A stretch of DNA of 36,525 nucleotides from Desulfosporosinus sp. GTDB taxonomy: Bacteria; Campylobacterota; Campylobacteria; Campylobacterales; Arcobacteraceae. The notes beneath the pieces are model-generated. The model worked only from the letters and a program-made list of their open reading frames with translations. It had not been told where the DNA came from and did not search any database. The stretch is taken from the NCBI GenBank assembly GCA_020719775.1, contig DYPS01000020.1:1-36525 (forward strand), in the 5' to 3' direction. Of the stretch, positions 1,273 to 26,600 are shown piece after piece (within the stretch, counting starts at the first letter, position 1; the number at the start of each line of letters is the position of its first letter). The position numbers and the translations under genes were made by a program.

Positions 1273-2164
1273 TCATACCTCTTTATAAATTTTCTAATCT
1301 TAAGCCTTTATAACATGGGTTAAATAAGACTTATATTAATTTTCAGTTTATTTTTATTAGTAAAATCTGGCTTTCTTCTTTGCTTGGTACCTTTTGGATG
1401 TTTAAATGCTTTAAACTATGTTTTATGTGTCTATCTCTGACTAAAATATTGTCAGCTTTGGATGAGGTTTATTAATTTGTATCACTGCATTGAGTTTCTA
1501 TTAATATATGCGATTTTCAGAATCCTTTTTTTTCCTGTACACAAAATCATCGGCAGACATAAAAATAGTATTTTGCGGAGTTATACTCTACACCTACACT
1601 TATTGTTTTTCCTTATTCATCATTTTTTATTCTTACTTCCGAACATTACATATACCTGTCGAAAAAATTAGCTACTCATAATTTAAAATTCAACATGCTG
1701 ATATTTTATAAATTACTCCTTCATTTATTAGACCGTATACCCTATCTATTTCACAAGTGACCTTGAAACTACGATTCTTCCAACGCATATTTGACTTTTT
1801 TTTAAGTCTATAACTGCCAAAATAAAATTTTTGCTTTTATTTCTCTATATATGTAGTCTGATAAAATGGCATTATGATCGATGTTTGAGAATTTTTTGAT
1901 AACTTCCTTGAGTGCAAGCTGAATAAATTCGAATGAAACTCCCCAGTCATAGAGAATTTATGTTTTTCCTGATTATGCTACTTTTTTAAATTGCTATCGA
2001 TATTCAGACAATGGCTTAATGCCTTCTTTAAATGTCTTCATATTGAAGGTGATAACATGCTAAGAAAACTTAACGCTTTTCATTGTCTTGAAATATAAAT
2101 TGTACGGAATGTCGCTTACTACTTAGCTATCATTAGGAAAAGATGAGTGAACGACATCATTCAT
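1273..2164 (-). pseudogene. Decayed paralogue of the left-edge gene
   Basis: Translated with UAA/UAG as Gln, this minus-strand region matches the gene at 1-728 along its length: MNDVVHSSF against MSDVVHQSF, SDIPYNLYFKTMKS against SDVPYNFYFKTMKS, and GYTVQQMKEQFIKYQHVEF in both. It is broken. One base appears to be missing in the T-rich run near 1834-1838, and near 1594-1600 the frame hits TGATGA and must shift to continue as MMNKEKQ. The copy shows the C-terminus missing from the window-edge gene: a basic tail (SKRYQAKKKARFYQQK) and a final IYKEV before TGA at 1273-1275. Single-base errors in a poor assembly could mimic some lesions, but at least two independent ones are present. Confidence 0.7.
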
Positions 2165-2404
2165 TTGAAATAAATACAAAAAACTAAAAAAGATGGACTA
2201 TTTCTATTATTTTTTAATAATCTTTTTCAAGGCTTTTTTTCCAACCTTTTTGGTTTAATTCTTATTCTCCAATTAAGTCATTTCTATATTACTCATATTA
2301 TTTTATGTTATAGGGAAAAAGGTAATGTGAATTAATCAATATTTGTAAATTATAATTTTTTAGAACTCATAATTAATATAACTACTTATTTATACTTTAT
2401 AAAG

Positions 2405-2770: not shown

Positions 2771-5305
2771 TCATTATTTTTTCATTTTTAGCTCCATCAA
2801 CCTATCTGAATTATATTTCATCAATAAATTTGTCTGTTTTATCTGACCAACAATCTAAGCACGCTCTTAATGACTCATTCCTGACTTATCAATTTACACT
2901 AATATCTAATTTTATTACATTAGTTTCAAAGCCTGCTTTTGAAGCTAAATTTACATAGCCTTTAGGACGTTTTGAGAAAAGCTATTCTGACTTTGTTTGA
3001 AATTATTAAATGACATAGAGTTATTAAAAGTTGAAGTATGGAAAGGAATATGATTCTACTTTCCAGTGGCAAAAGAGTTGTTTATCTAACTACTGTAATA
3101 ATAATTATCAGGATAATACTGCATTTATTGTCTTTATCCTGATGGATAGTTGTATCTATTTCCGTTTGCACTATTGTAGTGGTAGATGTCTTCCTAATAT
3201 GGGTGATATTTGTATGCTGTTGGCTCGCATGATCTTAAAAGAATTTAAGGTTGTTTTTATATTTATTAATGAGTTTGATAGAGTTATTGAGGTGGACTTG
3301 GCTTTAATATTGCTTGTGATTTTTGCATGTAGTTTTTTAAGTTTGAGGATTATCGAGATGCATTTGATGCGTTTGAATTTTTAGATTTTTGACTTTTGTT
3401 AGTTATTTAATTCTTATTTTTGTTGGTTTAGGATTTTTCATGTTTTTTGTTAGTTTTTTTTGTCTATTTGATGAAATATTTTGACTATTTTAGAGATTTG
3501 TGCTCAATACTCTTATTAAAATTCATAGATTTCTTGTTCGGAATAATAGAACTAGCGTCAGGTTACTCCTTTTTAATGTTTTACTTTTTGTTCAAATTAA
3601 TTTGATTAAACAAATTTTCCTTATTATTATTTGATTTTCTTTCTAAACTTTTCGTTTTTGGTTAATCCTTCAGTTTATTAGAAGATGATTTATCTTGTTT
3701 CTCTACGCTTTTGACTTTATTTTAAGTTATAATAATTTTGTTTTTGTTTTTAGGCATCACATTTATTTCTGAAGAGGCAGCAATAAATTTATTTTTTTAT
3801 TGAAATTAATTTTCCCTTTATGACTATTCGGAATCATCTTATTCTTTTGACTCTCTTGACTCTTAGAAATGCATGTCCTAATTTTAAGTGTTAATTTATG
3901 CATGTCTATATTTATGTCTTTATTATTTTGAGGGAGGCGCATTTAAGTTTAAGTTTAATGATTGTGGAATGTGATTTGCCACTTTTGAAAGTTATTACAT
4001 TTAAACTTAACTTTCATGAGCGTAGTCGTTGTTTTGGTAGTTTTCTTATAATGAGTCATTTTATTACTGTTAAAATGTATCTGATACTATTTACGGGGAC
4101 TAGCTTAATGATTTTTATATAATTTTGCTCTTTCTTTTAAAGTTTTATTGAGTCTATTTTATATTATTTTTTTAACATTTTTTTAAGTGCTACTTGAACT
4201 AATTCATTAAACTTATATGAGCTTTATTAAGTTTTGTCAATTACTTTTCCTTGTTTTTCAAATTTTGTTTCATTTCCTTAATTAACATTTTCCCATTCTC
4301 TTACACTTCCTGCTTAATAGAAGACTCCTTATTAAAAGATTAAACTTTTATTAGTAATTTTTCCCTTTACAAGGTTAGATCGTTTTTTTAGTTTGCTAGC
4401 TTTCTTATCTGTTCCTGTAAAGTGATAATTTTTTTATCATTTTATTTATTAGTGCTATTAATTTAGTTTTTGAGACTGCAAATCGTAAGCTAGAGTTCCT
4501 AACTTTTATTTAACTATTTTGAGTATTTTGAAAATACAGACTAAACTGATTTCTATTTCAAATTCTAAAGGGTAGAGTTTTTCTAAATCAACTTTTTGTT
4601 TTCTGCTAACAAGACTTGAGAAACTTACTTAGCCTAAATACACTATTTCTTCAATGAATCATTTTAATTGACAAGCTCATTGAGTTTTTCTTCAAATATT
4701 AAACACCTTTTATTTTGCTATGTTATTGATTTTTCTAGAGTCTTAAGTCTTTTTGTTTGTTAGTCACGATTTTATTTCAAAAATTTGTTTTACTTTAACA
4801 TTTTTTACATTTTCTTTGTATTATTGTCAAACTATGCTGCTTTTTGTTACATTTATTAGAGGAAGGTGCATGATGACTTCATTGAATCCATTTTTTATGA
4901 TTGTAAGATGTTCACACTTTTTCGGAGACTTGTATTTTATTATTATAGAGTTTTTGCTTTCTTTTGAAGGGCCTGCATAGCGCTTACATAGGACTTGCTT
5001 TTGATTCTTTCTGATTAGTTTGAATTCAGGCTTTGATGATTGTTTTCCTGATGTTTGTGAAGATTTGATAGACTCGACATGTTTTATTTATTAATTGACT
5101 AAAAAGTTTAATTTCTGGCGAATGTCATATCATCTGGCTCATAAGAAGACTTTGCGCTCATTAAGGTCCAATCATTGCCAAACTTTGGTGAATTATGTGA
5201 AGTCGGCGCCATCTGCATAAGCCATAGCTCAAGCTGTTTCGACGATAATGAAGAATTGGAAAGCTGATCATACTCTGAAAACACACTGGTCTGCTGCCTT
5301 GACAT
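2771..5305 (-). CDS. Long coiled-coil protein, 844 aa, unknown function
   Basis: The minus-strand frame from ATG 5305 to TGA 2771-2773 is exactly 845 codons with no internal TGA, although TAA/TAG (Gln) occur throughout. It begins MSRQQTSVFSEYDQLSNS. The first 90 residues are Ser/Thr-rich. Residues about 90-400 are a long heptad-like coiled coil rich in Lys, Gln, Leu and Asn (for example LQEQIRKLANQKNDLTLQ). The following 200 residues are low-complexity Lys/Asn/Ser/Gln sequence, and then comes a Tyr/Asn/Pro-rich stretch. The C-terminal 70 residues return to a predicted helix (QRAQIVGQIKQTNLL-like region ending MELKMKKQ). There is no signal peptide and no membrane segment. A cytoskeletal or basal-body scaffold is plausible from composition only. 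It is divergent from the ORF at 5754. Confidence 0.82.
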
Positions 5306-5753
5306 AGGATAAATAGTTAATTATGAATATACAATTTGAATGAATATCAGTTGTTAAATAAAATATAAAAAGTCTAATTTATAGCTTTATAATTGCGAGC
5401 ATGTTTTTTGCTTCAGGATTAGACATTTATTTTAAGTGGACACGTACCACAATTAATTTTAATTAGGCAAATTATGTTAATATTCTCGTCTCCTCAATTC
5501 TCAGTTATGAAAAGGGCTATCGTTATGGCAATGAAATAATTAATATTTGATATTTGATAATTGCTTTATTGCTATCTATCAATTTTATAATAATTATTAT
5601 ATGATGGTTCTGTTATTTTGTTATTTTAATCCTTTCCAATTTTAATTATATATTCAAAAGTTCTAAATTTAAATAAACAAACATTAAAATTACATATAGT
5701 GACTCAGCCTGTCACTCATAAATAACCAATTAGTCAAGAAATAGCATAAAAAA
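5306..5753. promoter_or_regulatory. Divergent intergenic region between the coiled-coil gene and the 1,494-codon ORF
   Basis: The two flanking genes are transcribed away from each other, so this 448-bp AT-rich interval should hold both promoters. I see no conserved box I can name and no ORF with good composition. A short near-repeat (ATATTTGATATTTGATAATT) lies near 5543-5563. Confidence 0.45.
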
Positions 5754-8700
5754 ATGAAATATGATACTAAATTGTCAAAACACACTGAATAAACCAATTC
5801 GGTCAAAAGGCTTTTCTAAGGTCAACAACATATGTTCACAGTTGCAGTACAGTTTTTGAAAAATTCATAACATAAGAACGCAAACACTATCTTTTTCTAA
5901 AATAAGATAAAGTAGGAAGTATCCTTTAAGTTTTATAAGGAGTTGAGTTATATTGTAAGATAGGTTTTTAGAGCTACAGATAAAAAACTTATCAATTTTA
6001 TTAATAAATTCCAAACTGATGAAATTTTATAACTAAAGGAGTTGTAGTCCATGAAGAAATATGTTTTAAATGCTAATCCCAAAGTTAAGCTTACTTTAGA
6101 CTTACTATTTTTTTTGAACAAAATTAAAAGTGGAATCTAAATTAAACAGATTATCACTCAATTTCATCACTAAAATATTCAAAATATCATGAACTCTCTT
6201 AATTATTAGTCTTCGTGCATTTTAAAAGCTAAAATTTATACGGTTTTGGTCCTTGCGAAGTATAGACTATAGCAATTTAGATAAGGGTAAAAATTAATAT
6301 TGATTTAAAATTGTGTAAAGTAACGAAAAAAATATGAAAACTTAATCCCTGAAAACCTTTAATTTATGAAAACAACATTTTACTTAAGTACAGTCCTAAT
6401 TGATACCTTAATTGGATCTTACATCAATAGATAACATTAAATTCTATAACTTTTAAAATAAGAAGAGAAAAGATGCAACAATTCACTATTAAATGAGTCA
6501 TATAAACAGGTATATCTGAATAATCTCCATGACCTTAAGGAAAAATTTAAGAAAAATATAATGTAAGAGATTATTCCAATAAAAAAAAATAAAGATTTAT
6601 CAAACACCCCAAAAAATTAAAAAAATTTTTTTCAGACTAAACTTAAGTTAGAAGAAAGCGATTCTCATTTTTATAACTAAAAAAGTTCATAAAAATTGGA
6701 ATAGTTTTGTAAGAGAACTTAAAAAAGATTATTTAATCAAAATAGTTAAACAAATTCTAAAGAATCTCTTAGTAGCGGTATCTATAGCTCAAACAAACTT
6801 TAAAAGAGCAAGTCTATGAACTTAAGAGGCATGTACAAACACATATTTTAAGTGAATTAAGATGACCATCATCTTTCGTATAATCCAGCAAAACAAAAAG
6901 CATATAAATCTAGATCATTGGTTAGGCAAAAAGATCAGTCTCTTAAAAATTTATTAAGCTCTTCTTTGAGCAAAAAGATATAAATTTATTTGGAATATGA
7001 GAAAATGAATAAACATTTTAGTGGTCAGCAAAATAATAGAAGAAAAAAAAAAAATTTGGACTAGTCTCGTGCGAGCTCACAGGACAATACCAATAAGTCT
7101 ATTGATAAAATTCCATAAAATTCAAGGATTTCTAAAAATAGTAGATAAAAACTCAGTGAAAACAGTCAAGGTGCTCAAATAAATAAGCAAATATCTTAGT
7201 TTAAAAAAAATGGAAAAGCATTTAAAAAAAAGAAAATCGCCTCACTATATAAAGCATTTGCATTTAATAATAAGGTTATTGATATTTGTCAGTGGAAGCT
7301 TTGTGAATAAAAGTAAAGGTTGCAGGAGATGGTATTTTTTCAAAAATATTTTGTGAAAGAAACATTAACTCATCCGATAAAAGAGTTTTAGGCAGGAATA
7401 AAAAAGTAAACATAAAAGTACGAACAGCTTATCACAACGAAATGCTAATTTAAACTTAAATTTATCAAATTTTGGTTAGAAAAATTGTTAATCTGCGAAG
7501 TGAAACTAAGTCAAATATAAAAAATCTTTACTTTATAAATTTAAATAAATAGTAAGAAAAACAAAATTATTTTGCATCGAGGAAATAATATTCTATGCGA
7601 AAGATTTATTACTATTTGGCCAACACTTAGGTATTTAATTCAAAAAAAAATATTTCAATTTGGGGTTTTCAAAAGATACTAAGATATTTTTATGCAAGTC
7701 GTTTCGAAAAAGAACGATAAGAAAAAAATTAAAAAATAAAAATAAAAATAAAGCTTTAAAGATATTGAAAATAAGTTATTTTCTAAGTATTTTGGAGATA
7801 TTTCAAAGGAATAAGCAGAATAAATTACATTCTTTTTGGATTTCTGTTACAAATTTATTTGTTTGATTAGTCATAGATAAAAAAAAGAAAATTCCTTTAA
7901 AGAACATGTGAAAAATATCACATAAGACGTTAATTTTCAATTATCTTAAAATTAGGCTCATTTACAAGTTTAAATGAAAAGAAATTCAAAATTGTAATTA
8001 AATCTAATGTCAACATCTGATATTCTTTTGTGCACGTTTTTTAACAAAAGTTAAAACACATTTTTTTTTATAAAAGTCTTCATATCAAAATATTAAATTT
8101 TGAAAATGTTATAAGATAGAAAGAAAAATAAAAAAACAACTGGAATAACTGTTTCAATATATTTTCGGTCAAACTTCAGAAAGTATGATTGCTCATCTGT
8201 TATTGAACTGAATAAAATTGATTTAAAAAATTTTCATATAAAAATTGAAGATTTCTTTCAATAGATCACATATTTTTTAAAGTTTGGTCGTTTTGCTTGT
8301 TCTTTCTCATAAAACTTTTATAATTTTTGTATAAACAAACTTTACATTCACTCTTCTCTAGGAATAAGCACAATTTAATCAAAACCACTAATAAAATCCG
8401 CAAGGTTTACAGACTTATATATCTCAAAAAAAGTTATAAAGTCACTTATTGAGCACTAATAAACTGAAAAAACTGAGTTATATCCTATTTCAATCACATA
8501 AAATTGCTTAGATCTATTTTCATGGCATTTAAGAGCAAATAATATCCTTCTTCCCAATTCTAAATGGAGGATTGTCCAAAAAAAAATAAAAAATATTTTA
8601 TCTTTCATGACTCATTTATCGAAAGTGACAAGAAGGAAAAGCAGTTTGTTAGCTTCATAAAAAATCAGATAATATAAGTAAGTATAAGATTCTAAAAAAG

Positions 8701-10238
8701 TTTAATACAAAAATGATGGTTTTTCAAAATCTAGATTTTGCTTATAACAAAAAACTGTCTATTATTTAGAAAAAATACAAAATCATCCTTGTAAAATTAG
8801 GGTAAGTATCCTTCAAGAGATTCATGCAAATATGTGGATCGCATAAATTTTAATATTCAGATCAAATTCAAAAAACCTTTAAAAATTTTACATAAGTTTA
8901 AATGATTTTTAATTACTAAACAGACCAATTGCTAAGATTAACAAAAGAAAATAGAAGGATGCCTAAAAAAAATAATAAAACAGTATAAGTAACAGTAATA
9001 GTCGTAGCATTATCAGTGACTCTAACATATCTTCTATTGTGCCCTAGAAAAGTTAATATTAAAAACCTTCAGTTGAGTAAAGTTCAACCATTTTTAATAA
9101 TTTTGAAGCGATAAAAATGTCCGATCCTAAAATGGTTCTGATGAATTTCATTAAAAGGATCGACTTCATGAAGTAAAATTGTTTTCAAAAGGTGTTTATA
9201 CATGGAGATTTCCAAGATTTTCGTCTTAACTAAAAAATAGCATCAAATTTAAAAGATGATCTATAAAAAGGTCACTTAAAGCATCAATACTTGGCACCAT
9301 TTTAACACTATTTTTAAACTATTATAAGCAAACCAGTAAGGGTCTAGATAGACAAGAAAAAACAGTATGTAATGCTAACTTTGATAAAACTTCGAATAAA
9401 TTCCAAAGTTTACTATCAATTTAAGATGATTTTGAAGGAAAAATAATTTCATTATGCATTTTAGATGAGTTAAAAGTCCATGATTTAGCTTTTAAATTTG
9501 TCTTCTAGTTAATCTATTAATAAAAGTTTCTAAGGATTTAATCATTTTATGAAAGAGTAAGGATGTGTTCCTTCTATTGTTATTAATTTAAATGAGTCTC
9601 AAAAATCTGAGTTATCGCATAATTTTTATCAATCAAGATAGTCTAAGCTTTTGGTTCCAGAAAAAAGAACTTCGATATTATCGAAAATTCCTCAAATATT
9701 TTAACCCACATAATAAGATTCCTTATTATCCTTAATCAGATGTCTGTATAGCTACAGCAAATAAGTCTTTTAAACTCTGATGCAGAATATAAAAATATAG
9801 CAGATAAGCAGTCGAATGGTTTTAATAATTTACAAAAAAAAGAAAATAATGCACAAACGAATCCTCTAACAAATAAACACATCTCAAACAGGCCTCTAAA
9901 TAGTATAAATAAAATAATAGCACTAAGACTTAAGATTATAAATATCTTCAGATAACTTTACTGACAGCTATTCCAATATTTTCAGGAGTGTTTAGGAAAA
10001 TCAAAATTAGGATTTATTATCATCTTTTAGATTAGTCTTGCTGAATGCTTGTCCTGAAAGTGTTTAATAAATATTGGAAAAATAAATTATTGTTTAGATG
10101 TAATAGGAAGAGACTTTACAGAGAATTTAATTTTAGAATTAGAAAAGATGTATAAAGTATGGAAGTAGTGGGAAAAAAATTAAAAAAATGGCATAGATCT
10201 TCATGAAGTTTTACGAATCTAATATGAAAAAATATTGA
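5754..10238 (+). CDS. Very long ORF (1,494 aa), basic, unknown function
   Basis: From ATG 5754 the frame runs to TGA 10236-10238 with no internal TGA (checked line by line for most of it), 1,495 codons with many TAA/TAG as Gln. It starts MKYDTKLSKHTEQTNSVKRL. Residues 1-230 look like a folded helical region (for example ANPKVKLTLDLLFFLNKIK). Residues 240-480 are Lys/Asn/Ser-rich and low in complexity. Helical segments then alternate with linkers. Aromatic- and Ile/Leu-rich stretches around residues 830-900 could be membrane-associated, but no clear helix is forced. I do not recognise the family. In the last quarter (about 9310-9920) other frames also read like protein, so one or more frameshifts, or a decaying gene, are possible. 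It converges on the first SPRY gene with 91 bp between. Confidence 0.58.
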
Positions 10239-10329: not shown

Positions 10330-11340
10330 TCAATCAATTTCGATTTCGTCATTCAATCCCATTAGCTCGACAAAAGGATATAAGTCCATTGCGCTAAAGT
10401 TTTTCTCAATTACTCTTTAGTATATGCAAGCGTCGTTTATGTAAAATGAAATCTTCTTTTTGTTTTCCACAACCATTTTTAGCAAATCATCATTAACAAC
10501 CTTTTTTTCATACTTTTTTACTTATTTTTGAACCCCTAAGTTTCGAACTGTGTGTGTATGTCCATAAAATTGAATGATCTAAGTTTGGCAATCGAGCCAC
10601 CTTTTATCGAACATGTTACTAGATTCAATTCCAAAACCAATAGAATTGTCTTTAACATTTTTCAACTTAATTTACAAAGTAAAAACTTCATTTTAGCTGA
10701 GCTTATTCCCCCAAAGTTGATAATATGAGCCACCTTAAACAGTTTTTTTCATTAAATTCCCAAAAATTAGGTATTTATTTGAGAATTTGCAGTTAGGGTT
10801 AACAGTAAATTTGTTTAACTTCTTTGGCTCATTTAATTTTTATGCTTTTTCATCTTTTTACCAATTTTGTTTTTGTATTTATTATTGCATGTTTTACACG
10901 ATAAATCTTAAATTATTTAGTTAATTTTATTGCTCCGATATTATCAAGTCTTTACTTTTCACTTATCCTTAAAGAAAATTAACCTTTTATTATAATTTTT
11001 TTATTTTTCTGTCTTGCAGCTTTTCTTTCGATTACTAAATCTTTTGAAGAGGAAGGGAAAACTTCTTTTTTTTATTCATAAACGCTATCTAAATTGTCAA
11101 GGAATTATCTTCTAAATTAAAGGATGATCGTTCTGTAGTTTATAGTGACATAAACAAGTCTTGAGCCGTTTCGAATAAATGAAGAAATATTTCAGGAAGA
11201 TTATCATTGGAGTAATCACCTTGATGTGCACTCTAAGTTTCATTATTTTAGACAAAGATATTAATCGTGCCTTTCTGAAACGAGAATGAATAGTTGATTT
11301 AGTCCTTTTTGAAGTTAAATTATCTTTTTTATCCTTACAT
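10330..11340 (-). CDS. SPRY-domain protein with N-terminal beta-rich domain and coiled coil, copy 1 (336 aa)
   Basis: ATG 11340 to TGA 10330-10332 is 337 codons with no internal TGA. Residues about 10-100 are an uncharacterised beta-rich domain (INYSFSFQKGTINIFV, then YSNDNLPEIFLHLFE). Residues 102-170 are a Gln/Lys/Leu coiled coil. Residues about 180-336 form a SPRY domain: LIFGNL, then YQLWGNKLSQNEVFTLQIKL, then DNSIGFGIES, and the near-terminal ISFYINDACIYQ with LYPFVELMGLNDEIEI, the usual closing strands. SPRY domains bind protein partners, so this is likely a cytosolic oligomeric adaptor; the partner is unknown. The start is supported by copies 2-4, which begin at the equivalent Met. It is the last gene of a minus-strand tandem array and one of two intact copies. 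Confidence 0.85.
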
Positions 11341-11522
11341 TGTTGGTTCTTCAATTGATAAACTTTTCAAAAGATATAAATGTGAAAGAGTTAGGTAAGT
11401 ATTAAATATTAACTATATAAAAAAAAAATTAATTTTATAAACAAGATTAAATAAATTAAAACTTTTGAAGAATAATGTGATAGTTTATCTGAGTGCAATA
11501 TTTAAATCTAATCATTTAGACT

Positions 11523-12651
11523 TCAAACAATCTCAATTTCATCATTCATTCCCATTAACTCAACAAAAGGGTATAAGTCCATCTATCCAAACCATTTTTA
11601 AATTGCTGTTTAGTATATGCAAAGGTCGTTTATGTAAAAAGATATCTTCTTCTTGTTTTATACAATCATTGACAAAAAATCATTGTTAGAAACTTTTTTT
11701 AAAGGGTTTTTGACTTACTTTTTTTAGCCTAATATTTGTATTGTATGTGTATGACCATAGAATTGAATTATTTATGCATGCAAATCAAGCCATCTTTTAT
11801 CTAACATATTTCTAGACTAAATTCTTCCAAAGCCAATAGAATTGTCTTTAATATTTTTTAATTTAATTTGCAAAGTGAAAACTTCATTTTAGCTTATCTT
11901 GTTCCCCCAAAGTTGAAAATACGAACTACCTTCAACATTTTTTTTTTATTGAATCCCCGATAATTATATATCTGTCCGAAAATTTGCAGTTAGGGTTAAC
12001 TGTAAATTTGCCTATAATTTTTGGCTCATTTGGTTTATATATTTTTTAATTTTTTTGCCAATTTTATTTTTGCATTTATTATTGCATGCTTTACATTATA
12101 AATCTTAAATTATTCAGTTAATTATGTTGCTCCAATATTATCAGGTCTTTACTTTTCACTTACCTTTAAAGAAAATTGGTTCTTTCTTACATTTTTTTTA
12201 TCTTTTAGGCGATAAATCTTAAATTATTTAGTTAATTATATTGCTACAATATTATCAAGTCTTTACTTTTCACTTACCTTCAAAGAAAAATGACTTTTTC
12301 TTATAACTTTTCCATTTTTCTGTCCTGCAGCCTTTCCCTTGAATATTAAATTTTTTAAAGAGGAAGGGAAAGCTTCTTTTTTTTATTCATAATAGCTGTC
12401 TAAATTGCCAAAGAATTATCTTCTAAATTAAAGGATGATTGTTCTGTAGTTTATAGTGACCTGTATAAGTCTTGAGCCGTTTAGAATAAGTGAAGAAATA
12501 TTTCAGGAAGATTGTCATTTGAATAATCGCCTTGGTAAGCATGCTATTTTTTATTGTCTTAGACTAGTATTTTTATAGTACCTTTCTGAAAAGAAAATGA
12601 GTAGTTTATTTCTTCTTTTTTGAAGTTTAATTATTTTTTTAATCCTTACAT
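11523..12651 (-). pseudogene. SPRY/coiled-coil gene copy 2, disrupted, with an internal tandem duplication
   Basis: It aligns with copy 1 from Met (12649-12651) to TGA (11523-11525): INYSFSFQKGTI, DNLPEIFLHLFQTAQDL, WGNKISQNEVFTLQIKL, ISFYINDLCIYQ, LYPFVELMGMNDEIEI. Three oddities are present. First, the coiled-coil segment is duplicated in tandem with a 114-bp (38-codon) offset. Second, the upstream repeat has an in-frame TGA at 12280-12282 where copy 1 has TAA (Gln). Third, a 10-base T run at 11938-11947 (A10 in the gene sense) is one base too long for the downstream SPRY frame. The homopolymer lesion could be a sequencing error, but the TGA is a plain substitution. Probably a young pseudogene. 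Confidence 0.75.
12098..12294 (-). repeat. Tandem duplication inside SPRY copy 2
   Basis: The segment from 12098 to about 12179 recurs from 12212 to about 12294 with a few substitutions. The offset is 114 bp, so the reading frame is kept. It covers the part of the coiled coil encoding QVKSKDLIIL and NQLNNLRFI. Copies 1 and 3 have only one such unit. Confidence 0.85.
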
Positions 12652-12779
12652 CTTTTTGTTCTTTAATAGATAAATTTTTCCCAAAAAGTTAAATGCAAAG
12701 TTGATGAATAATGTATATATTAAAGGTCAAAAAATTAATCATATTTTGTAAATCTATTTTTTTTAAGCCATAAACTATA

Positions 12780-13215
12780 ACAGTTTGTCGGTTTTTAATA
12801 TGTTTATTTCTTGCTTATTTTTTTACTTATTCTCTAAAATCTTTTATTTATTTCCAAAATTATATTTTAATGCCTTTTTTTTCTTTAATTAAACAGAAAT
12901 TTAATCTTTTAAAAGTTTTATTATCTTTCTTTCTGCTTGCTTCTCTCTTTCTTATTTATAAAGTCAGGGGTAACTAAATTTACTTTATCCATAAAATCTG
13001 CTTAATTGATATAAAAATATCTTTTAAATTAAATCTTGATAACCTTGTGGGCTGAAGTTATATGAATAATTTTTGAATAATTTCAAATAAATCAATAATT
13101 GTTTTAGGGAAATTACATTGGAATCTATGATATGCAAGTTCTCACTTATTGTCTTACACAAATATGTTTATAGTATTTTTTTGATAAGAAAAAACACATC
13201 TGATAAAAAACTCAT
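12780..13215 (-). pseudogene. Relic of a further SPRY-family copy (N-terminal part only)
   Basis: Between copies 2 and 3 the minus strand still reads like the family's N-terminal domain: SYQKNTINIFVQDNK, then a TGA, then ELAYHRFQCNFPKTIIDLFEI in the place of DNLPEIFLHLF, then a basic stretch like the start of the coiled coil. No SPRY part is left before copy 2 begins. An in-frame TGA and strong divergence mark it as an old, truncated duplicate. Confidence 0.6.
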
Positions 13216-13318
13216 GAGAAATAATATTCGATATAGGAACATTCATCTCTATAAAATACTATTTAATCAGATCATAAAATTATTATTTTATTCCTATTAA
13301 ACTTATGTTCTTTTAAAA

Positions 13319-14284
13319 TCAAATGATCTCTATTTAGTCCCCAAGGTCTCTTAACTGTATAAATGGATATAAATCTTGGCTACTGAATTACTTATCAATA
13401 TTTTATTAAAGAATAGTAATATTGTTTATGAAAAGGAAGATCTTATTCTTATTTTGGACTACCATTTTTAATTTATCATTTTTTATGACTTTTTTGGAAT
13501 TTGAAACATATTTAGTTCTTCCTAAACATACTGTATTATGAGTAGGACCGTTGTACATTATCATTTCATTTTGAAAATTAATCACTCTGCTATCAAATAA
13601 TTTATTAGATTAAATTCCAATTCCAATTATATTGTCTGTTATATTTTTCAAAACGATTTATAGAGTAAACACTTCATTTTATTCTATTTTATTGCCCCAT
13701 ATTTGGTAAATTAAGCCAAACTAAGCAGTTCTTTTAATTATGTTTCCAGTAATTTGATATCTGTTTGAATAAAAACAATTTTAATTAACAGTGAACTTTT
13801 TACATTTTTTTTATTACTTTATCTCCATATTTTTAACAGCGTTTTAAAAATTATATTTTTTTAGCTAATTCTTTAGTCTTTAAATCATTAAATCTTTATT
13901 TACTCCCTACAACTCTAAATACTTAACCTTTTATTAAAGTCTTTTTATCTTTCTATCTTGAGACTTTTATTTTGATTCCTAACTTCTTTAAAGTGGCAAC
14001 ACAAGTATTTTTTTTTTATTCATAAAAACTACTTAAAGCACTAAAGAAGAATTTTCTAAACTGAAGCATGAATGATCAGTATTTTGTAGCGACGTAAACA
14101 GATCTCTTGCATTTTCAAAAAAGTGCAAAAACACTTCAGGAAGATTATCATTCGAATACTAACCTTGATAGACTAATTAGTGTTTACAATCTTCAATGAA
14201 TATTTTGATTGCACCTTTCTGAAACGTAAAATAGTAGCTAACTTATTATTTTTGAAAATTGATTTATTTGAGTTCGGCTTCCAT
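13319..14284 (-). CDS. SPRY-domain protein with N-terminal beta-rich domain and coiled coil, copy 3 (321 aa)
   Basis: ATG 14284 to TGA 13319-13321 is 322 codons and open throughout. It begins MEAELKQINFQKQQVSYYF, with the same N-terminal domain as copy 1 (FTFQKGAIKIFIED; YSNDNLPEVFLHFFENARDLF). A coiled coil follows (about residues 100-165), then a SPRY domain (IYQIWGNKIEQNEVFTLQIVL; IIGIGIQSNKLFDS; the closing IFLFINNITILQ and LYPFIQLRDLGDQIEI). Copies 3 and 4 are closer to each other than to 1 and 2, including about 150 bp of 5' flank. An upstream open stretch is also similar in copy 4 but contains a 3-base indel and then loses frame, so the Met at MEAEL is the best start. Likely an adaptor protein; the partner is unknown. 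Confidence 0.85.
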
Positions 14285-14298
14285 TTGTTTGATATTAT

Positions 14299-14940
14299 TC
14301 AACTGTCGATATATCTTATCTTATATTAATAGTGATTGCTTAAAAAATATAATTTGTGAGTTAATATATTAAGATAAATATATTAAGATGGTTTTAAGAA
14401 TGTCATTTTTGACACGGCTGCCAAGTTTAATAAGATTGGCTCGGATTATAAAATTCTAATATATTTTAATTATAAGTTATATTTATAAGATAAAATAATT
14501 TCTATTTAGGCCCCAATATCTCTCATTTGTATGAATGGATACAAATCCTTGCTCTTGAATTATTTGTCGATGCTCTCCTAAAAAATTAGCACATTGTTTA
14601 TGAATAAAGATATCTTATTTTTGTATTAGACAAGCATTTTTAATTTATCATTTTTTATGACTTTTTTAACTGCACCCAAATGTTTAGTCCGGCCAAGGCA
14701 TATTGTATTATTCAAATTAAAACACGAATGCTAAGTATTTTGAAGTGATGTAAACAGATCTTTCGCATTTTCAAAAAAATGCAAGAAAACTTCAGGAAGA
14801 TTGTCATTTGAGTATTGGCCTTAATATATGCAGTATTATTTGCCATCTTCAATGAATATTTTGATTGCACCATTCTGGAACGCAAAATAGTAGCTGATTT
14901 GATCCTTTTTGAAACTGATTTACTTGAGTTCGGCTTCCAT
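14299..14940 (-). CDS. SPRY-family copy 4, internally deleted hybrid ORF (213 aa)
   Basis: ATG 14940 to TGA 14299-14301 is 214 codons and open. The N-terminal domain is intact (MEAELKQISFKKDQISYYF ... DNLPEVFLHFFENAKDLF). After HSCFNLNN the frame jumps straight into the second half of the SPRY domain (TICLGRTKHLGAV, KISLFINNVLIFQ, LYPFIQMRDIGAQIEI), so the coiled coil and the first SPRY strands are missing. The deletion keeps the frame; its joint is near 14720-14735. The family's usual stop after IEI is also lost, and the frame runs on about 60 codons through AT-rich sequence to a TGA inside the 5' flank of copy 3. It may make a small fusion protein or be a pseudogene that happens to remain open. 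Confidence 0.6.
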
Positions 14941-15201: not shown

Positions 15202-16453
15202 TCATAGCTAAAATTATTTAGTCTGTAAATCCTCATTTGAAATATCGATTATACTCATTCTATTTCCAGGAACTGCAACTAATCTCACCTTTCTCATATT
15301 ATCTTAAAACATTGATGTTCTGAACTAGCTACTTTTGCCATGGATGACTAAGTGTGGCATTTCTCTAATAATTAATGGATCTTGTTTGTAAGGCTAACTT
15401 GCCATCGTAAAGGCTTCAGTTGGGCACATGTGAGATGATTTTACAATTATCTACATCAGCTAAATCTAAGATTAGATTGAACAGTTTGCCTTCATGTCAA
15501 GAAGGTTCTAGCCACAGCCGATCAGCATATTTAAATTGTTTTTTCCTTTGAATACTTGAGGATTTGAACAAAGACCAACATATTCTCTACTTTTTGGGAA
15601 AATAACAGGGTTATGCATAATTAATGGGGATATCCGTTTTCTATCCTTTCCACTTGAAGGAATCACAAAAGTTTACACATTTTTACTGATCTGTTATAAA
15701 AAGTTATCGAATTCTTTTATTTCCTTAACTTATTTCTTAAAACCTCCAATAATGACTATATTCGCTAAGTTTCTATTTATTAAATTATCCTAGTTTTTTA
15801 TAAAATGGCTCAGCTTGTACATAGTCTCAAGAGTAGGTTCAGACAAAACTATTAAATACTTTGGGTGTTTTATTGTATTCAAAAGTTTAGGTTGGTGTGG
15901 ATATTCTGGGTAAAACATTTCACCAACCAAAAACTTGTTTGCATTTTTTTTATATTTACCTTTTATCAAGACAACGACTCCGAAGATAAGTTTATTTGGC
16001 TTAATGATTTGACCTGAAAATTAATTAAAAAATACCATCTAACATAGTCCCTTAATCAAACTACAACTTAACTTTTCCAGTATTATCCTAGAGCTAAAAC
16101 TAATCCAGCTCATCCCACACCCGATTATGATCAGCATATTTTTATTTATATCCTTTCTCAAAGGCACGGATCCTATATTTCTATATCCTCTTCAAGACAC
16201 CATACAGACAGTCGATATTTTGTTTATCTTCGACTTAGCACATCTCTCTAAGCTAATTTATTCCTACATTTGCATCTCTGAATGATCTTTTTTTGAACTC
16301 CTCTAATCGATGCTTGTACATTTATTTGAATTATAGGGTTAGTTATCTTTTTTAGCAGGGCATAACCGGATAAGTTAAGAGACCTTTTTATCTCTCGATG
16401 TGTATACTAGGAGCAAGAGAAAGATTGTCAAATGATAGGAGAAGTGACTGCAT
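15202..16453 (-). CDS. POLD2: DNA polymerase delta small (B) subunit
   Basis: The gene is two exons on the minus strand, 16453-16036 and 16013-15202, joined across a 22-nt intron, giving 409 residues (human POLD2 has 469). It is the accessory subunit that links the polymerase delta catalytic chain to its other subunits in replication. The N-terminal part has the family pattern QFKQMYKHRLEEF, then CLYGVLKR, then the OB-fold segment LQDNTGKVKLQFDQ. The inactive phosphodiesterase-like domain follows: NIVIIGGFKK, FDNFLQQISKNV, PLIMHNPVIFPKS. The C-terminus has the conserved order NPQ, IGCGQNLLDM, CPTEAF, DPLIIREMPHLVIHG, and closes with VRLVAVPGNRMSIID before TGA 15202-15204. The start is MQSLLLSFDNLSLAPS; no earlier in-frame Met was seen. 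It is the clearest housekeeping gene in the window. Confidence 0.88.
16014..16035 (-). other. 22-nt intron in POLD2
   Basis: In gene sense it starts GTATTT and ends TTTCAG. Removing it joins GTMLDG to QIIKPNKLIFG and restores the conserved POLD2 OB-fold frame. Without removal the upstream frame reads a different, non-homologous peptide. It shifts the frame by one, so the evidence is the homology on both sides. Confidence 0.8.
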
Positions 16454-16645: not shown

Positions 16646-17211
16646 TCAAGTTTATATATAGAGTGGATAGGACTTATGGTCTTTTAGCTCAATGGCATCT
16701 ATCTAATCATACAAAAACCACAGGTTAGAAAATTCATGCCCAAGACTAACGCTCTATTCAAGTCGCATCTCTTCAATAGCACTTTGTAGTTAATAAGCAT
16801 GTCAACTGCTAATTATTTACTTTTCGTAAAGTTCGATCATACTTATCGTTATTTCATGTAAGGTGCTGAATAATTAAATTCAAGACTTAATTTAGTAATA
16901 CTCAATTAATTCTCTATGCTATTTTTATATTAAGTTAATTTTCCTGATAAGAAATAATTTAATTACAACTTACAATGCTAATTTATTTGCCTTTATTTTT
17001 TGCATATATCATTTTTCCTTATGGTAAGACTCTCTCCTTCTTGATCCTACATGGAATATTTTTATTTTTGATGACCAATGACAGTCTTTTGCTGAATTAA
17101 GGTTAACTATAGTCAAATGCAGACATTTTTTAAATTCGCGAATGATCTATAAGTTTTAAGTCTAGGCTTTCCGAAGGGAATATTAAATTCATGATAAAGA
17201 CATTGCTTCAT
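16646..17211 (-). pseudogene. Unresolved minus-strand coding remnant or multi-exon small gene
   Basis: Two minus-strand stretches have good protein composition but do not join simply. The first starts with ATG 17211 (MKQCLYHEFNIPFGKPRL), meets TGA at 17113-17115, then reads on well as KYSMQDQEGESLTIRK and NQLSITKLSLEFNYSAPYM to a TGA at 16839. An 18-nt GT...AG segment at 17107-17124 would remove the first TGA in frame. The second is one base out of register: MIELYEKQIISS, a TGA at 16802-16804, then a very protein-like IEEMRLEQSVSLGHEFSNLW continuing to HKSYPLYIQT and TGA 16646-16648. It may be a small gene with tiny introns that I cannot place, or a decayed one. The plus strand is also TGA-poor here, so the strand choice is not certain. 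Confidence 0.38.
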
Positions 17212-17645
17212 AAAAATAAGCCAAGCTCGAAATAAATAGCAAATTCACAAAAACGCAGAGCATTAAAATAAAAAAATTTAAAAAATAACGAGTCATCAAC
17301 TAATGTAAAATTAAAAAATAAAGGCTCAAATTAAGCAAAGACAAAGTCGTACTATTAATCAAGAAGGAAATAACAGTTATAGTAAAAATTAATTATACTA
17401 CTTGGAGTTAACTATCATTGCAGAGCTATTAAAAAAAATAATCAAAAATAGGAAAGCAAAATGTAAAATATATTAAAGTTATCATTTTCTGATCATCATG
17501 CACGACTCATGCAATAGCTAAAGAAATATTGGTATTGCTTCTATATTATTTTTGCCATTTTTAGAATTTTATGCATTGGTATTTTATTGGGATTATTAAT
17601 TCTTAACCAACTTATTTTTTTTTCATAATATTTATAAAAGTTTAA
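17212..17645. other. A-rich intergenic region upstream of the fibrocystin-like gene
   Basis: It lies between two divergent starts and should hold the promoter of the fibrocystin-like gene. Plus-strand frames are open through parts of it, with ATG codons at 17461 and 17498. The 17498 frame joins the main protein frame without an intron and would add a hydrophobic N-terminal extension. I judged this less likely than the start at 17646 because the latter gives a standard signal peptide. Confidence 0.45.
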
Positions 17646-20600
17646 ATGTTCTTCAAACAAACCAGGCACAAGACTGCCAGTTTATTACTTCTAACATGCT
17701 TAATAAGTAAATATCCATTTATTTAGTTAATCTTAGCCTTATACAAGCAGTACCTTCAATTTAATATGTCTCAACAAATATTTTGGCACCAGTACCCGCT
17801 TACGGCTCACTCATGGGAGGAACCACTCTTTATATCAAAGGGTCAGGCTTTAGTACCATCTCTAATTAAAACTCGATTTTTATTGGACCCTATCCATGTA
17901 TAGCCAATGCAGATGGAGCCCAAGATAGTCTATTAGTCTGCAGAACGACTGAATTCACTGATCCAAATTTTAAATATGGATTAGCAACAACAGTCACAGT
18001 CACAACACCCGAATCCTCACCCTAAACAGCCACCTGCACTATATCTGTATGTAAATTTTCATACGTTGGATCTTACACACCTCTTCTTTATTAAATAAAT
18101 CCAAGAAGTGCATATGGAGATGAACAGATTAAAATATGGGGCGTTCATAGAATTACTGACCCAGGGGATGGAAGATCAGCTACAATGGGACAAATTTAAA
18201 GCCTACTTATTGATGGAATTACCTGTTCCTTGATTGATGTTGTTCAGTAAGATACCATAAGCTCAGGAAGTAGAGATTTAATTGAATGTAATGTCTACAA
18301 GGACCAAGATGCAGGAGAGTATAATTTTTCTGAAACTGTTAATTCAGGTTTGATGCAAAATTCAGTTAGAACTTTCCAGACTAGTTTATTTACGGGAAAT
18401 AACTACACACAAAGAGTTGTCGCCAAAGTTGATGCCATGCCATTCCATTAAGGAGGAAGCTTAGGTCAAAATATTAGGTTATTAGGTACTGGATTTGCTC
18501 AAAATCTTACAAACTTTACATGCCAAGTTGCAGGCCAATAATGCCAAGTTACAGAATCTACAGTAACTTCGATTACAGTAAGCATTCCTATTCAAGATCT
18601 TTCAAATGTTAATTTTGGAGCTCTTCCAAAAGACTCATCTGATGCTCAAACTCAATAAGGGTAATTTTTGGGCTCACATGGATTCAGATACACCAAATAT
18701 GACATAACAGATATGTGGAAAACAACCTAAAATTGGATAACCTTTCTACAACAACCATCAAATGGTTTAACCGTACTCGATGACAAGTTAGTTACAGAAG
18801 TCAGTTCAACTTAAAGTTAATCTTCACCTTATGCTTAATATTGGAGAGGATACTTTATAGCACCAACCACAGGAGTTTATAGATTTGCAGGGACCGGCGA
18901 TGACTAATTTATCGTAAAGTTTTCACAAGTTCAAAACAGCTCAAATTTAGCAAATTTACAGACCCTGATCTCTTAATCCCAATATTCAAATCAACATTTC
19001 CTTCCATATTGGACAGGCTAAGGAACTACTTAGGTTAACATTACTCTTAGCAAGGGCTATTATTATATGGAAGCTGCCAACTTAAACTATGGAGGTGTTG
19101 GTTTTTTCAAATTAATAGTTGATACCCCTTAAAATGGTTATGTGATTAATCCAACATGGCAAGTTGATAAAGTTTAGATAATTCAAAACAACTTAATTCC
19201 TGAAATAATTACAGTAACTGTGAATAACACAGCCCTATCAGCTAGTTCAAACCATTCATTTAATCTTTACTATCAAACAGTTTCAAGTGGAATTGTAAGC
19301 ACCTACCTCTGCGTATTTGCTTTAGGGGATACTGCAGATTAATTTTCATATAAATTATCTCAATCAAACATGTCAGCGCTATCAAACTACAATGATGTCG
19401 TAACTTTACAGACAGTTACTGATGCAAGTCTTGCTATTACAAGCTACATTTACACAATCACAATAAACAATTACAGATTAAACCCAGTGGTTCCATTAAC
19501 TCAGACTTCTGCAGTTAAGATAGCTCAAACCCAAAACCACTCTGCTGCAATCAGCGGAACATACAGTTTAAAAATTGGCACTGATGTCCTATCCGTTTGG
19601 TCTACAAAGCTAAACGCTGATTCTCCTAACATATCATTTGACGTCAATACATATCATTTAACAGAAGCCTTAAACAAATATTACAGTTCTTCATAAATAA
19701 ATGTTGTTTCTTTGAAAGGAATATCAAATGTGGATAAAATTACATATTTCATTTAGTATGTTGGTGTTTTAGGTGTTCCTGGAGAATTGACTGTCAGTGA
19801 TTCTATTCTCTTATTAGGAGGATCAAATAATACTTTTACTAAGACTGTAACTACATTAAGATGGTTTTCAAATAGACCATTTTACAGTCCGATTCCCATG
19901 GATTTCATGAAAACTGCAGAATCCACTCCTCAACTTTATCTAACCACTAACAACATTCCCATCATTTGTCAAGATTGCAGCTACGCATTCGATTCAACCA
20001 AAAATGCTGTTGTTAACTCCGCATCATTATCTAGCACTACTTACACAATTTCGGTCACAGATACTGCGAGCGTTGGATTCACACTCAGTGATGTTTCAGT
20101 TTACCTCCTCGGAGTTCAATGCAAAACTTTGACTGGAAGTTTGGCCAGTTTTACTTGCAACTTCGACACTAATACTGCTGGAAGTCCTGCTTTGCCAGCA
20201 GGTTCTGCTACTCCTTAAGTTCACATCGCTCAAATCGGTTATGCAGATGTTTCAGCCTTGACTTCAGTTACAATTAGTTCGACTGTCACATCTTTGTCAC
20301 CAGCCTCTACAGGCACTAATGGAGGAATCAAAGCCACTTTAATAGGAACAGGTTTTCCTCTTGATTCCACTACCTCTTTCTCAATCGTCCTCTGTGACAA
20401 TTCAGTAAATAATTTCATATCAGTCTCCAACTAAAAAATCGAGTTCATAATCCCAAAAGCAGTTACTGCCTGTTCAGGATCTACAAAGTCTCAACTCTAG
20501 TTCGGTGGACAGAATCTGACTTTAACCTTCACTTATGACGATGCAGTAACTCCACAAGTCACTTCATTATCAACAACTTCAGCTTCACCTATTCTGAAAG

Positions 20601-23600
20601 GTCAAGTCACAATCACTGGATCTCAATTTACAACAACAGCCAACACACACGTTTGGCTAACTCAAAACGGTGTTCAAATTTACGAACTTGGAATTCTTTC
20701 CTTAACCTCTACCTCAATTCAATGTGTTCTTGGAGGTGGAAAAACTGGACTTTATAATGTTCAAATTTTCGATTCAACTACAGGAGCAAGTACAATCAGC
20801 GCAAACTCTGAATTCAGATATGAAATTCTTGTTGATTCAGTCTCTCCAACAAGTGGAGGACTTGGTGGAGGATATGACATCACCATTACTGGAAGAAATT
20901 TCGCTTCAGCTGATTCTCACACTGTTTTTGTAGGAGATGCAATGAACAGCATTTGCACAATAAAATCTGCAACAGCCACACAAATCGTCTGCACAGTTCC
21001 AAGAATGGATGACACTTATACTCCAAGCACAGCACTTGGAGTTGTAGTAACTGGAAGAATTTTGTAGGAAAGTCGGTGTGCAGGAACATGCGATTTTACA
21101 TTCGACTAAAGTCCATCAATGACCAACTACGTTTTGGTTCCAAGTACTTTAACTTATGATGCTGGAACTGTTGTCACAATAAATGGAGATTCTACAAAAG
21201 GAACAAACTTGACAGGTGCAATTGTCACAGTGGATGGAGTAAGTGTTAACCTAACTACATCAACCTAAACTTCTCTAAGTTTCGCATATCCTGCCTTAAC
21301 AGTAGGAAGTTATGAAATAGTTATTCAAACTACATTGGGATCATCAGTTACAAACAACTTCCCATTAATCCAAACCTCAACAAAAGCTTGGTTCGCAACA
21401 AGCGTCTCAAGTAGTACTGGTTCATCTCAGGGTCAAATCATATCCGTTCAAACCAATGGTCTAACATCTAGCAGAACCGACAGCAAACTTTATGTATACT
21501 AAATATGCACTGGTTCAAACACATAATTAAAAATAGTCTCAGCTGCACCTAACAAAATAGAATTCTAAAGCATCAAAGCTATCGGAACTAATTATCAATG
21601 CAAATTTAATGTCACATATGGAACATTATTCAAAGTATACAGCTACACATATGATTTTGCTAAAACCCCTGCAGTAAGTATCGCTTCAAATTCCGGTGTA
21701 TATACTTTGACTCGAACAAATATGACAACAACTGTCTACAATACTGTCATTTTTGAGTACTTAGACTCTCAAGGAAACCCAACTTCCAGTGTATATGCAG
21801 CAACATTAGCAGCAGATAATACCATAACCCCAATTAGTGGGTATTTACCAAATGGGCAGTTTAGAATCAGAGTTCATTCAAATACATATGGCTATGCAGT
21901 AGTATCTCCATCAACTTTTACTAAAGCTTGGCCTTCAACTCCAACTGCAACTTCAGTTACTTCTTCATTCGTTGGCGGTCAAACTTTGACAATCTCTGGA
22001 GCTGGATTCATTACATCTCATCCTGAAAATAATGAAGTTAGCGTTTGCGGAATTAGAGCAGCTGTTCGATCAGCTACTAATTCTCAGTTAGTACTCACTG
22101 TACCTCCATTAGTGACAACTCAAACTCAACAACTTTATAATTTAGCCAAATCTTCAATTATTAAAGGCTCTGTAATCAGTGATACTCCAGCAAATGCACT
22201 TTTCGTAGTTGATGGAGTTACTAAAACAGTTTATTCATCCGCCAATCCAACGTGCTATGTCGGCCTGAATTTCGGATCAAACGTTTTTGCCGACATTTCG
22301 TCAATAAAATACATGCCAAACCCTGCTTGGGCTACAGCTTCAAAATATTTGTCAGGAGCTGTATTTGAAGGTTCAAATGATAGTACAACATGGACAAATA
22401 TTTTCTCAATTGACACATCTCAAGTTCACTCAGGATGGAATTATTGGATGCCTTCAAGTGCCATTCAATATCAATTTGTCAGATTTTCTCATACTTCAGT
22501 TTCAGGATGTCAACTTTCAGACTTTGTATTCTAAGGAATCATCTACTCAAAGTAATCAGTGACAAGTGGAGTCGACAAACAATGCAATGTAGTAGTCAAA
22601 GCACCAACAACCGATATCACAATTTCTAATGCAGTTACTTACAGTCACGCAGCTACTTCAACCATTACTGGAATATCTCCGAGTTTCGCATCAAGCGCCG
22701 GAGGAGACACTGTCACAATTACTGGTACAAATTTCGGAACTGTGACTAGTGACATCACTGTCACCATTGACGGTGTAGTTTGTTCTGTTTCAAGCACAAC
22801 TGCTACTCAAATTCAATGCGTAACTGGCTATAGAGCTTCAGCTCCAGCCTCTGGAAATTCATTCGTTGTTACTTCTCAAGGAAATGCAGTTTTACTCACA
22901 GTTCCGCCATTCTTATATATCGACAGATGGTCAAATCAAGCAACATGGGGTGGAGAAGCCTTCCCTAGATAAGGAGACTCTGTGTACGTACCAGTTGGCA
23001 TGACACTGCTTGTCGATGTATAAGCGACACCTATCTTAAACACAGTTTTAGTCGAAGGTAAAATCAAATTTAGTGATGAAATGGACATGACTTTAGACGC
23101 ACACTACTTTATCATCAACAAAGGTGAGTTCGAAGCAGGGACAGAGGCAAACAGGTATCAACATAAACTGACAATCACTCTACATGGAGGATACTACGAC
23201 AAACAGTTACCAATTTTCGGAAACAAAGTCCTTGGTTGTAATAACTGCAAATTCAGTCTGCACGGTCAAGTTAGAACTCCAACATGGACATTAACAGCCA
23301 ATACAGTCAACGTAGGCGCCACATCATTGACAGTCGTTGAGGCAGTCGATTGGCAAATAGGATAGAAAATCGTCATTGCTTCATCTTCTTTCGACCATTA
23401 CGAAAGTGAGTAAAAAACAATCGCCTCAGTTTCAGCCGATAATATGACAATCACAGTTGTTGAACCTTTCAAATTTAGACATTTTTCAGCCGTATAGACT
23501 TACGCTGGAAAAGACTTCGTAATGAGAGCTGAAGTCGGTTTATTGACAAGAAACATCAAAGTTCAAGGAAACGATCAGTCAGTTGCCGATAGGTACGGTT

Positions 23601-26600
23601 CACACATGATGATGAACGGAAAGAGGGACCAAGGATTGGTGGCTTCATTCAGTTATGCTGAGATCACAAATTGCGGTCAACCTAAGATTATTGGTCGTTA
23701 TTGCACCCATTTCCATATGGCTGGATAAATGCCAGAAAGTTCAGTTCGAGGAATTGCAGTCCATCATTCATACGCAAGAGTCTTAACAATTCACGGAACA
23801 CACTTCTTGACAGTTTAGAAAAACGTTGGTTATCATGTTTAAGGACACAACATTTTCATTTAAGATGGTATCGAAACAAATAATGTCATCCAAGACAACT
23901 TATTGATCTCATCAATCACCTCACTAACATTACTTCAAAGTGACATAACAGTGGCAAGTATTTGGGTAACAAATCCATACAATACAGTTCAAAGAAACCA
24001 TGCAGCTGGTGGTGATTTCTATGGTATCTGGTATTAAGTAAAAGATCATCCAGATGGACCAAGTGCTACATCTGATATCTGCCCAATGGGAATGCAGATT
24101 GGAGTTTCAAGAGACAATGTTGCTCACTCCAATCTTAGATTCGGTTTAAGAATTTTCAAGTTAAGATCTGCACAATATCCATGTGATCCTATTTTTGATT
24201 AAAGTCTACTAGATCCATATACAGCAAATGTTCCAATATAATCTGTTTTCGATAACTACACACTATGGAAGAACAAAGAATGCGGATTTTTAGGTGAATA
24301 ACTTGGATATACAACTATTAACAACTTCAAAACAATCGATAGTATTAAGGGTGGGCTTCAATTCCACAAGACTAACTTCACAAAGCAGCTAGTCATTGCT
24401 CAAAACTCGGTAGTGGTCGGTTTTTCAAACGGAAACGCACCTGCTGACATCGACACAGACTACAATAATGCAAGAGGTCTTATCGCATCAAGAACAGACG
24501 GTTTCAAAGCTATTAACATCACATTCGTCAACTTCGGCCCCACTATGACCCCTTTACAATCCTGCAGTTAATGCTACCATTTCAAACTTTGGGTTGTCGG
24601 TTCAAAAACAACATAATTTGCACAAATAACTTATGTCAACATTACTGGAAACTATATTTTCTGGGAAAAATGGAGAAGAGAAGTCTTTATGGATTTGGAC
24701 GGAACTTTGTTGAAACCTTTAGTAGATAATATTAGTCCGGCTATCTCTGCACAAACCTCAGGCTCGATAACACCATATAGACCAAGCGTCATGGTTCCAA
24801 GTCACTGTTATCATATTACTGGACCTGTTTGGAATGATACGACTTATTGTGATTCAACTGTAACTTTGAGAAGCATTCTTTTCACGAACGCAATGCCGAG
24901 TATTGACTTTATGTCAATTGATATTAAATCACACTTATTGATCGATCCTTACGATAATTTCTCCACCCTTTATTTGACAGATGATGACTTCTCTCAATAA
25001 TACATGATTGTCATTAAACCATCAAGCATGGATATCAAATCTTCATGGGCTATGCCATTCGCTGTAAATCAGTTTTATAATATTCATTGGAAATTAGGAA
25101 TAGACTTTACTCATGTCGCAATTGCTCCATCTCGATTATGGAAATAAACCGAAGGAGTTGTTCTAAGATTCAACTACACAGATAATAGAGAGCTGTTCCA
25201 AATAGGAAAATGGTATCAATAGCACATTAATTTGCCATATATCGATAAATCATTGGCAATTATTAATCCAACAACATGCAAAAATGGAGACTATTTCCAT
25301 GATTCTGATAATAAATACTTATTTGTTTGTGTCAGTGGAAGAAATAAAACTGTCAGATAATGGATTGATGTGAACGGTATCAGATGCCTTAACTTCTGCC
25401 CTTAGGAACCACTTGAACCGGGAAAATAGGATTTCCAAAGATAATGGACAAACGTCACTCAATGGAACTTAACAGATGCTAGCAATAATCCAAGACTTCC
25501 GGTAGCTGGTGAAAATATAACGATTCCATATTAATGGAACTTAGTTTTGAATACAAACCCTCCTGTTCTTAATTATCTTGACATCAAAGGTGACCTAATT
25601 TTTGATAGAGCCCAAGACATCACCTTATAGGCTCATTATATCTGGGTTTCACAAGGAAACATCACAATTGGATCTTAAGCGAGTCCTTACATTAAAAAAG
25701 CTACAATTATTCTACACGGCTAAAAAGATGATAATTATTTGGTTATTGATCCAAATGCATCAGGAAATAAGATGCTTGCTAATACTGGTGGATTAAAATT
25801 CTTCGGAAATCCTCCTAAAAATGTCTGGACTAGATTGACAACTACAGCTGTAATGACATCTACCACTATAACTGTTGCAGATGATATTACAGGATGGAAG
25901 GCTCAAGATAAGATTGTAATTGCTCCAAGTTATGACGGACAAAAATAATTCGAAAAAGTTTAAATAGTGTCGATTTCTGGAAAAACAATCACATTTACAC
26001 CCGCTTTACAATTTGAACATTATGGAGCTGCTACTGCAACCATTTCAAACACTTATGGTGTTTTAGATGCACGTTCTGCAGTTGGTTTGTTAACAAGAAA
26101 CATCAGAATTACGAATGCATCAGATTCAAACGGATGGGGATGCAGAGTTTTGAACTATGGTTATTTAGAGTTACCATCAGATTTAATAAATGGAAAAGTA
26201 AAACTGAAAAATGGATACTTACAATGGAACGGCGTTGAGCTTGATGGTTGCGGTCAGTACGATACAACAAATGCAGGCCTAAAAATTGATCATGTTGGTT
26301 TCAATGATCCATCAGTTTTAAGTCCATAAGTTCGAGCTCAATATAATGGATATGCTAAGACATAAATAAACAGCTCATCTATTCATGCATGTTATGGTAT
26401 GTGTACGTGGATTTCGGATTCAAAAAACGTCTCACTTAACAACAACGTCTTTTTCTGGGCAAGAAAATTCCTTGTCTACGTATAAAGAGTCGATCAATAC
26501 AACTTCACTAACAATTTGATGATTGGAGCAAGAAAAAGGGATGAACTTGACAGCGTTCTATCAGGAACTAATATGGTAGATGATGTTTCCGGTTATTAAC

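Follow-up and report, generated by a model that had tools for sequence, protein, structure and literature searches.

A tandem array of five head-to-tail copies of one gene was found on the minus strand at 10333-14940 of the window (the whole stretch of DNA that was analysed, 36,525 nucleotides, bases 1-36525 of contig C52). All five share one orientation and are read with TAA and TAG as glutamine. With a confidence just short of even, we favour a model in which they represent a small family of tandemly encoded ciliate proteins that act as scaffolds or adaptors, combining a coiled-coil dimer, an XRCC4-type head and a SPRY/NHR sandwich, and encoded by old, constrained duplicates. For the dimerisation, head fold, peptide binding and cellular role of these proteins we infer the following arrangement. 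Two chains would pair via a parallel coiled coil, the N-terminal head of about 98 residues is most likely (at roughly even chances) of the XRCC4/SAS-6/CCDC61 type, and the C-terminal SPRY/NHR-type beta-sandwich probably binds a partner peptide. The dimer would thereby carry its pair of heads at one end and its pair of binding domains at the opposite end. The genes themselves are tandem duplicates of long standing that purifying selection has maintained, although three of the five later died.

Reading down from the highest coordinate, the copies follow one another on the minus strand in the order E, B, D, C, A. Their positions are as follows.

10333..11340, minus strand: copy A, intact, 336 aa (translation; profile match, E 4e-177; AlphaFold model), with head 11047-11340, coiled coil 10816-11046 and SPRY/NHR-like domain 10333-10815
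11526..12651, minus strand: copy C, broken, with an intact head at 12283-12651 and a SPRY-like part at 11526-11945
12896..13204, minus strand: copy D, a remnant holding the head and the start of the coil, with an in-frame TGA (profile match, E 9e-13)
13322..14284, minus strand: copy B, intact, 321 aa (translation; profile match, E 1e-160; head model), with head 13991-14284, coil 13805-13990 and SPRY/NHR-like domain 13322-13804
14494..14940, minus strand: copy E, broken by a large internal deletion

Under translation table 6, copies A and B read without interruption from Met to a terminal TGA, and the coil of copy B is about two heptads shorter than that of A. In copy C the frame is interrupted after residue 123 by a TGA (12280-12282) at a position that is a glutamine codon in A, and one additional base in a run of A near 11945 shifts the frame. 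Copy C also repeats about 114 nt of its coil internally and in frame (within 12109-12300, minus strand), so that coil length within the family changes by repeats. Tiny introns were considered as the source of the lesions in copy C and rejected, as the alignment with A runs unbroken through the TGA and the frameshift is a single-base difference. No SPRY part is recognisable in copy D. In copy E the first ~78 head residues (14701-14940) are joined to the last ~72 SPRY residues (14494-14712), the last head strands and the coil are missing, and the usual stop codon is lost, so that the frame continues to 14299. By tblastn, A and B are 51% identical over their full length (E 7e-103), A and C 64-75%, and B and E 74-80%; copy D retains 33-44% identity over head and coil (best E 6e-14). 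The additional base in the homopolymer of copy C could be a sequencing error; the remaining lesions in copies C, D and E are not of that kind. Translation under table 6 and tblastn thus bear out a preliminary description of the locus as a tandem array of head-coil-SPRY genes with two intact copies beside three decayed ones.

The assembly (2.85 Mb, 228 contigs) is filed as the genome of a prokaryote species, and the genes of the window read through only when TAA and TAG encode glutamine (table 6). Fifty-six protein-kinase matches were found in the same assembly, most of them with several in-frame TAA or TAG codons and distributed over more than 20 contigs. Of 20 contigs sampled, 7 consist of N and 13 were readable, and 5 of these 13 have open frames under table 6 alone. 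Because of these two observations, a sizeable share of this nominally bacterial genome is ciliate DNA; the ciliate contigs include C23, C42, C59, C77, C78, C100, C155, C188 and C224. Reading by eye, introns of ~20-23 bases were identified in kinase genes on these contigs (L029 on C42, L032 on C59 and L027 on C224), for example GTACAATTTATTTTATACAG on C42 and GTAATAATCATATTATGCAG on C59. Introns of this size are known in Paramecium and Nyctotherus, while those of Tetrahymena are longer (PMC2633312). Genetic code and intron size point to a ciliate with Paramecium-like gene structure, co-binned with a bacterium. The code, the introns and the protein kinases on sister contigs led us to reject an origin of the genes in a bacterium. 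The assembly is rated 100% complete and 0.32% contaminated, a contamination score that does not reveal its many ciliate contigs.

Directly after the head, the sequence obeys the a/d heptad rule to a degree matched by only 2 of 5000 shuffles for copy A and 72 of 5000 for copy B. The heptad pattern supports the proposed coiled coil in both copies and would be consistent with parallel pairing of two chains.

The full-length AlphaFold model (6 sequences) has a mean pLDDT of 58 and is best in its C-terminal part, where the core reaches ~70-83. Foldseek and VIA-align place this part among concanavalin-like sandwiches. The best match is the PRYSPRY domain of TRIM67 (Z 9.6 over 131 residues, 3.1 A), followed by TRIM9 (Z 9.3), RanBP10 (9.1) and Ash2L (8.9), with RanBP9 and BTN3A1 also found; galectins score equally to SPRY proteins, so that the concanavalin-like assignment holds at the level of fold only. 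Pfam Neuralized was detected in three of four copies (best E 0.0043; 16.3 bits against a cut-off of 23.3) and Pfam SPRY (PF00622) in one (E 0.01; 16.4 bits against a gathering cut-off of 26.3). In our reading, the pattern KKxSFYIND...DLYPFVEL resembles the latter half of a SPRY domain. Taken together, the PRYSPRY fold matches and the sub-cut-off Pfam scores support the SPRY tail that had been proposed, as a SPRY-like domain; we describe it as SPRY/NHR-like without assigning it to PF00622.

This layout resembles that of TRIM and butyrophilin PRYSPRY proteins (TRIM67, TRIM9, TRIM21, BTN3A1) in that a coiled coil precedes a C-terminal SPRY-type sandwich, but the array proteins differ in their N-terminal domain and have no visible membrane segment. 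No Pfam match to the RING and B-box that precede the coiled coil in TRIM proteins was obtained in copies A, B, C or E. They share with Neuralized (NHR) proteins a C-terminal domain that scores, below cut-off, with Pfam Neuralized, but differ in having a single domain after a coiled coil, again with no RING found.

The identity of the head is less straightforward. Heads of the XRCC4 superfamily, to which CCDC61/VFL3 belongs together with SAS-6, XRCC4, XLF and PAXX, consist of an N-terminal seven-stranded beta barrel with a helix-turn-helix between strands 4 and 5 (PMC7267773). The AlphaFold model of head A has strands at residues 6-12, 15-22, 25-32 and 36-41 and helices at 45-55 and 59-67, with most of residues 35-102 below pLDDT 50. 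In the model of head B, four strands extend to residue 44 and are followed by a single helix (48-66), the block up to residue 50 having pLDDT ~60-76. Residues ~66-98 are mostly below pLDDT 50 and drawn helical, and strands 5-7 are absent from the models; by simple propensities the stretches 80-87 and 92-98 (LVLQVVF and ILVLPLQ in B) are beta-prone. As modelled, the order of four strands and, in A, a helix-turn-helix matches the initial two thirds of the topology seen in XRCC4 and SAS-6.

When the B head was run against the PDB in an open Foldseek search, 4 of the best 30 rows (E 0.6-1.4) were head-coil structures of CCDC61. VIA-align paired three CCDC61 entries with the head from N-terminus to N-terminus over 59-62 residues (rmsd 2.5-3.5) at Z 5.3-5.7, where values below 8 can reflect a common arrangement. 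Most rows with a comparable Z cover fewer residues, as matches to a meander. No head match reached E <0.1, and the Z values are tied with pieces of Pur-alpha and methyltransferases. Among the 50 VIA-align matches listed for the head model, SAS-6 and XRCC4 appeared with their coils only and not with their heads. Using hhalign, with query sequences confirmed against PDB entries, the head matched none of SAS-6, XRCC4 or CCDC61; these three also miss each other by the same method, and sequence profiles are therefore uninformative on this question. The CCDC61 matches are suggestive, being unprompted support for an XRCC4-type head and short of proof. For the XRCC4/SAS-6 likeness suggested in the preliminary description, the strand-helix order of the modelled half and the repeated, in-register CCDC61 matches speak in favour, but the tied scores and the unmodelled strands 5-7 keep it at the level of a suggestion.

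Compared with CCDC61/VFL3, the array proteins are alike in their predicted layout, with N-terminal strands, then a helix-turn-helix (modelled in copy A), then beta-prone stretches that run straight into a coiled coil. They differ in head length, ~98 residues being shorter (CCDC61 was crystallised as residues 1-143), and in ending in a predicted folded SPRY/NHR-like sandwich, whereas members of the XRCC4 superfamily, including CCDC61, usually end in a low-complexity tail.

The alternative that survives best is a TRIM-like layout with an unrelated, ciliate-specific head (another beta-meander-plus-helix domain), the link to XRCC4/SAS-6 being due to chance. We regard this as quite possible, at somewhat less than an even chance: the head matches are weak and tied in score with pieces of Pur-alpha and methyltransferases, there is no sequence link to XRCC4, SAS-6 or CCDC61, and SPRY domains of TRIM and butyrophilin proteins are among the best C-terminal matches, but CCDC61 recurs in register, the order of strands and helices and a head leading straight into the coil agree with the XRCC4 type, and the RING or B-box of a TRIM-like layout was not found.

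When the last strands are aligned by eye, which is also the basis of any likeness to the PISA motif of the XRCC4 superfamily, the family motif MNKKK lies against N-x-F-K of SAS-6 and E-F-D-R of CCDC61, and the place of human CCDC61 F128, the head-to-head contact of that protein (PMC7267773), corresponds to a lysine. Should this alignment hold, the lysine would speak against filaments of the SAS-6 kind and in favour of a head like that of PAXX. A more specific proposal, which we consider rather unlikely as a whole, is a new branch of the XRCC4/SAS-6/CCDC61 group with a compact, perhaps PAXX-like head that lacks the hydrophobic head-to-head contact and is fused via the coil to a SPRY-type domain, serving as a ciliate dimeric adaptor, for example at basal bodies or in end joining during programmed genome rearrangement. 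The XRCC4-type scaffold superfamily is small, and its known members take part in DNA end joining and in the building of centrioles and basal bodies. Genome rearrangement in Paramecium relies on ligase IV/XRCC4 end joining (PMC3077386), and Paramecium basal-body orientation uses CCDC61 (PMC7267773), so that either setting is conceivable for the array proteins. The value of the finding hinges on the head fold. An XRCC4-type head would mean that a small scaffold superfamily has been joined to a SPRY-type binding domain, and would provide a lead on ciliate basal-body or genome-rearrangement adaptors; an unrelated head would make this an ordinary lineage-specific coiled-coil-SPRY family.

Relatives of the array were sought at several levels. 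With whole-protein, head and SPRY profiles, no other copies were detected at significant E in the assembly outside the window's contig, and a profile search of 100 relatives, 104 family genomes and 399 order genomes gave significant E for that contig only. IMG/VR and GTDB contigs, collections not built for ciliate genomes, contained no relatives by head profile, SPRY profile or DNA pattern, and sequence searches of the PDB with single copies and with the head and SPRY profiles gave no significant match. In the partial literature library searched, nothing relevant was found on SPRY families in ciliates or on XRCC4-SPRY fusions; the head-coil-SPRY architecture may already be known elsewhere.

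Nei-Gojobori estimates were calculated under table 6. Copies A and B have a saturated dS of 2.6 (dN 0.35), A and C a dS of 0.62-0.88 (dN 0.10-0.15), and B and E a dS of 1.2-2.1 (dN 0.12-0.18), with dN/dS at 0.09-0.17 across pairs, dead copies included. The closest pairs are A-C and B-E, and the members of each pair also lie near one another in the array, as expected from stepwise tandem duplication. The duplicates are old and have been constrained by purifying selection, and this holds even where one partner is now dead, so that the three losses came late. The SPRY part evolves ~1.3-1.6 times faster than the head.

These values do not support the suggestion that copies at the locus are rapidly born and lost in the way of recognition proteins. 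A fast-evolving recognition family (for self/non-self or prey recognition) diversified in this manner could account for a tandem array with three of five copies dead and for SPRY parts that diverge somewhat faster than heads, but it is improbable given the uniformly low dN/dS, the absence of young copies (dS 0.6 to saturation) and the presence of only one locus in the ciliate sequence of the assembly. Still less probable is that misassembly of a mixed bin, or sequencing error, produced the copies or their lesions: the contig does sit in a bacterial bin, one lesion is an added base in an A homopolymer and the second G8 gene of the same window is frameshifted too, but the copies are well diverged from each other in a single orientation, A and B are open under one code with low dN/dS, and a nonsense change, a deletion and the decay of copy D are atypical of sequencing errors.

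The window contains several other genes. At about 1-2300 (minus strand) lies a further tandem pair of an unnamed family, with an apparently open copy near 1-800, which has no Pfam match above cut-off, and a broken copy near 1400-2300. Two long ORFs under table 6, at 2771-5500 (minus strand, 909 codons, rich in Q, N and K) and 5703-10238 (plus strand, 1511 codons), gave no Pfam match at E 0.01. At 17195-36262 on the plus strand, two giant TIG / G8 / CEMIP beta-helix proteins with a layout like that of PKHD1L1 are encoded in tandem; the first gene is open for 3819 codons and has a C-terminal membrane-like segment, and the second, mostly 72-93% identical to it, has several frameshifts and is missing ~90 residues. 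Finally, the ORF at 15202-16191 (minus strand) resembles the small subunit of DNA polymerase delta (Pfam DNA_pol_E_B, E 1.6e-14); its best PDB match is DNA polymerase delta subunit 2, and it comprises 329 codons compared to 469 in the human chain.
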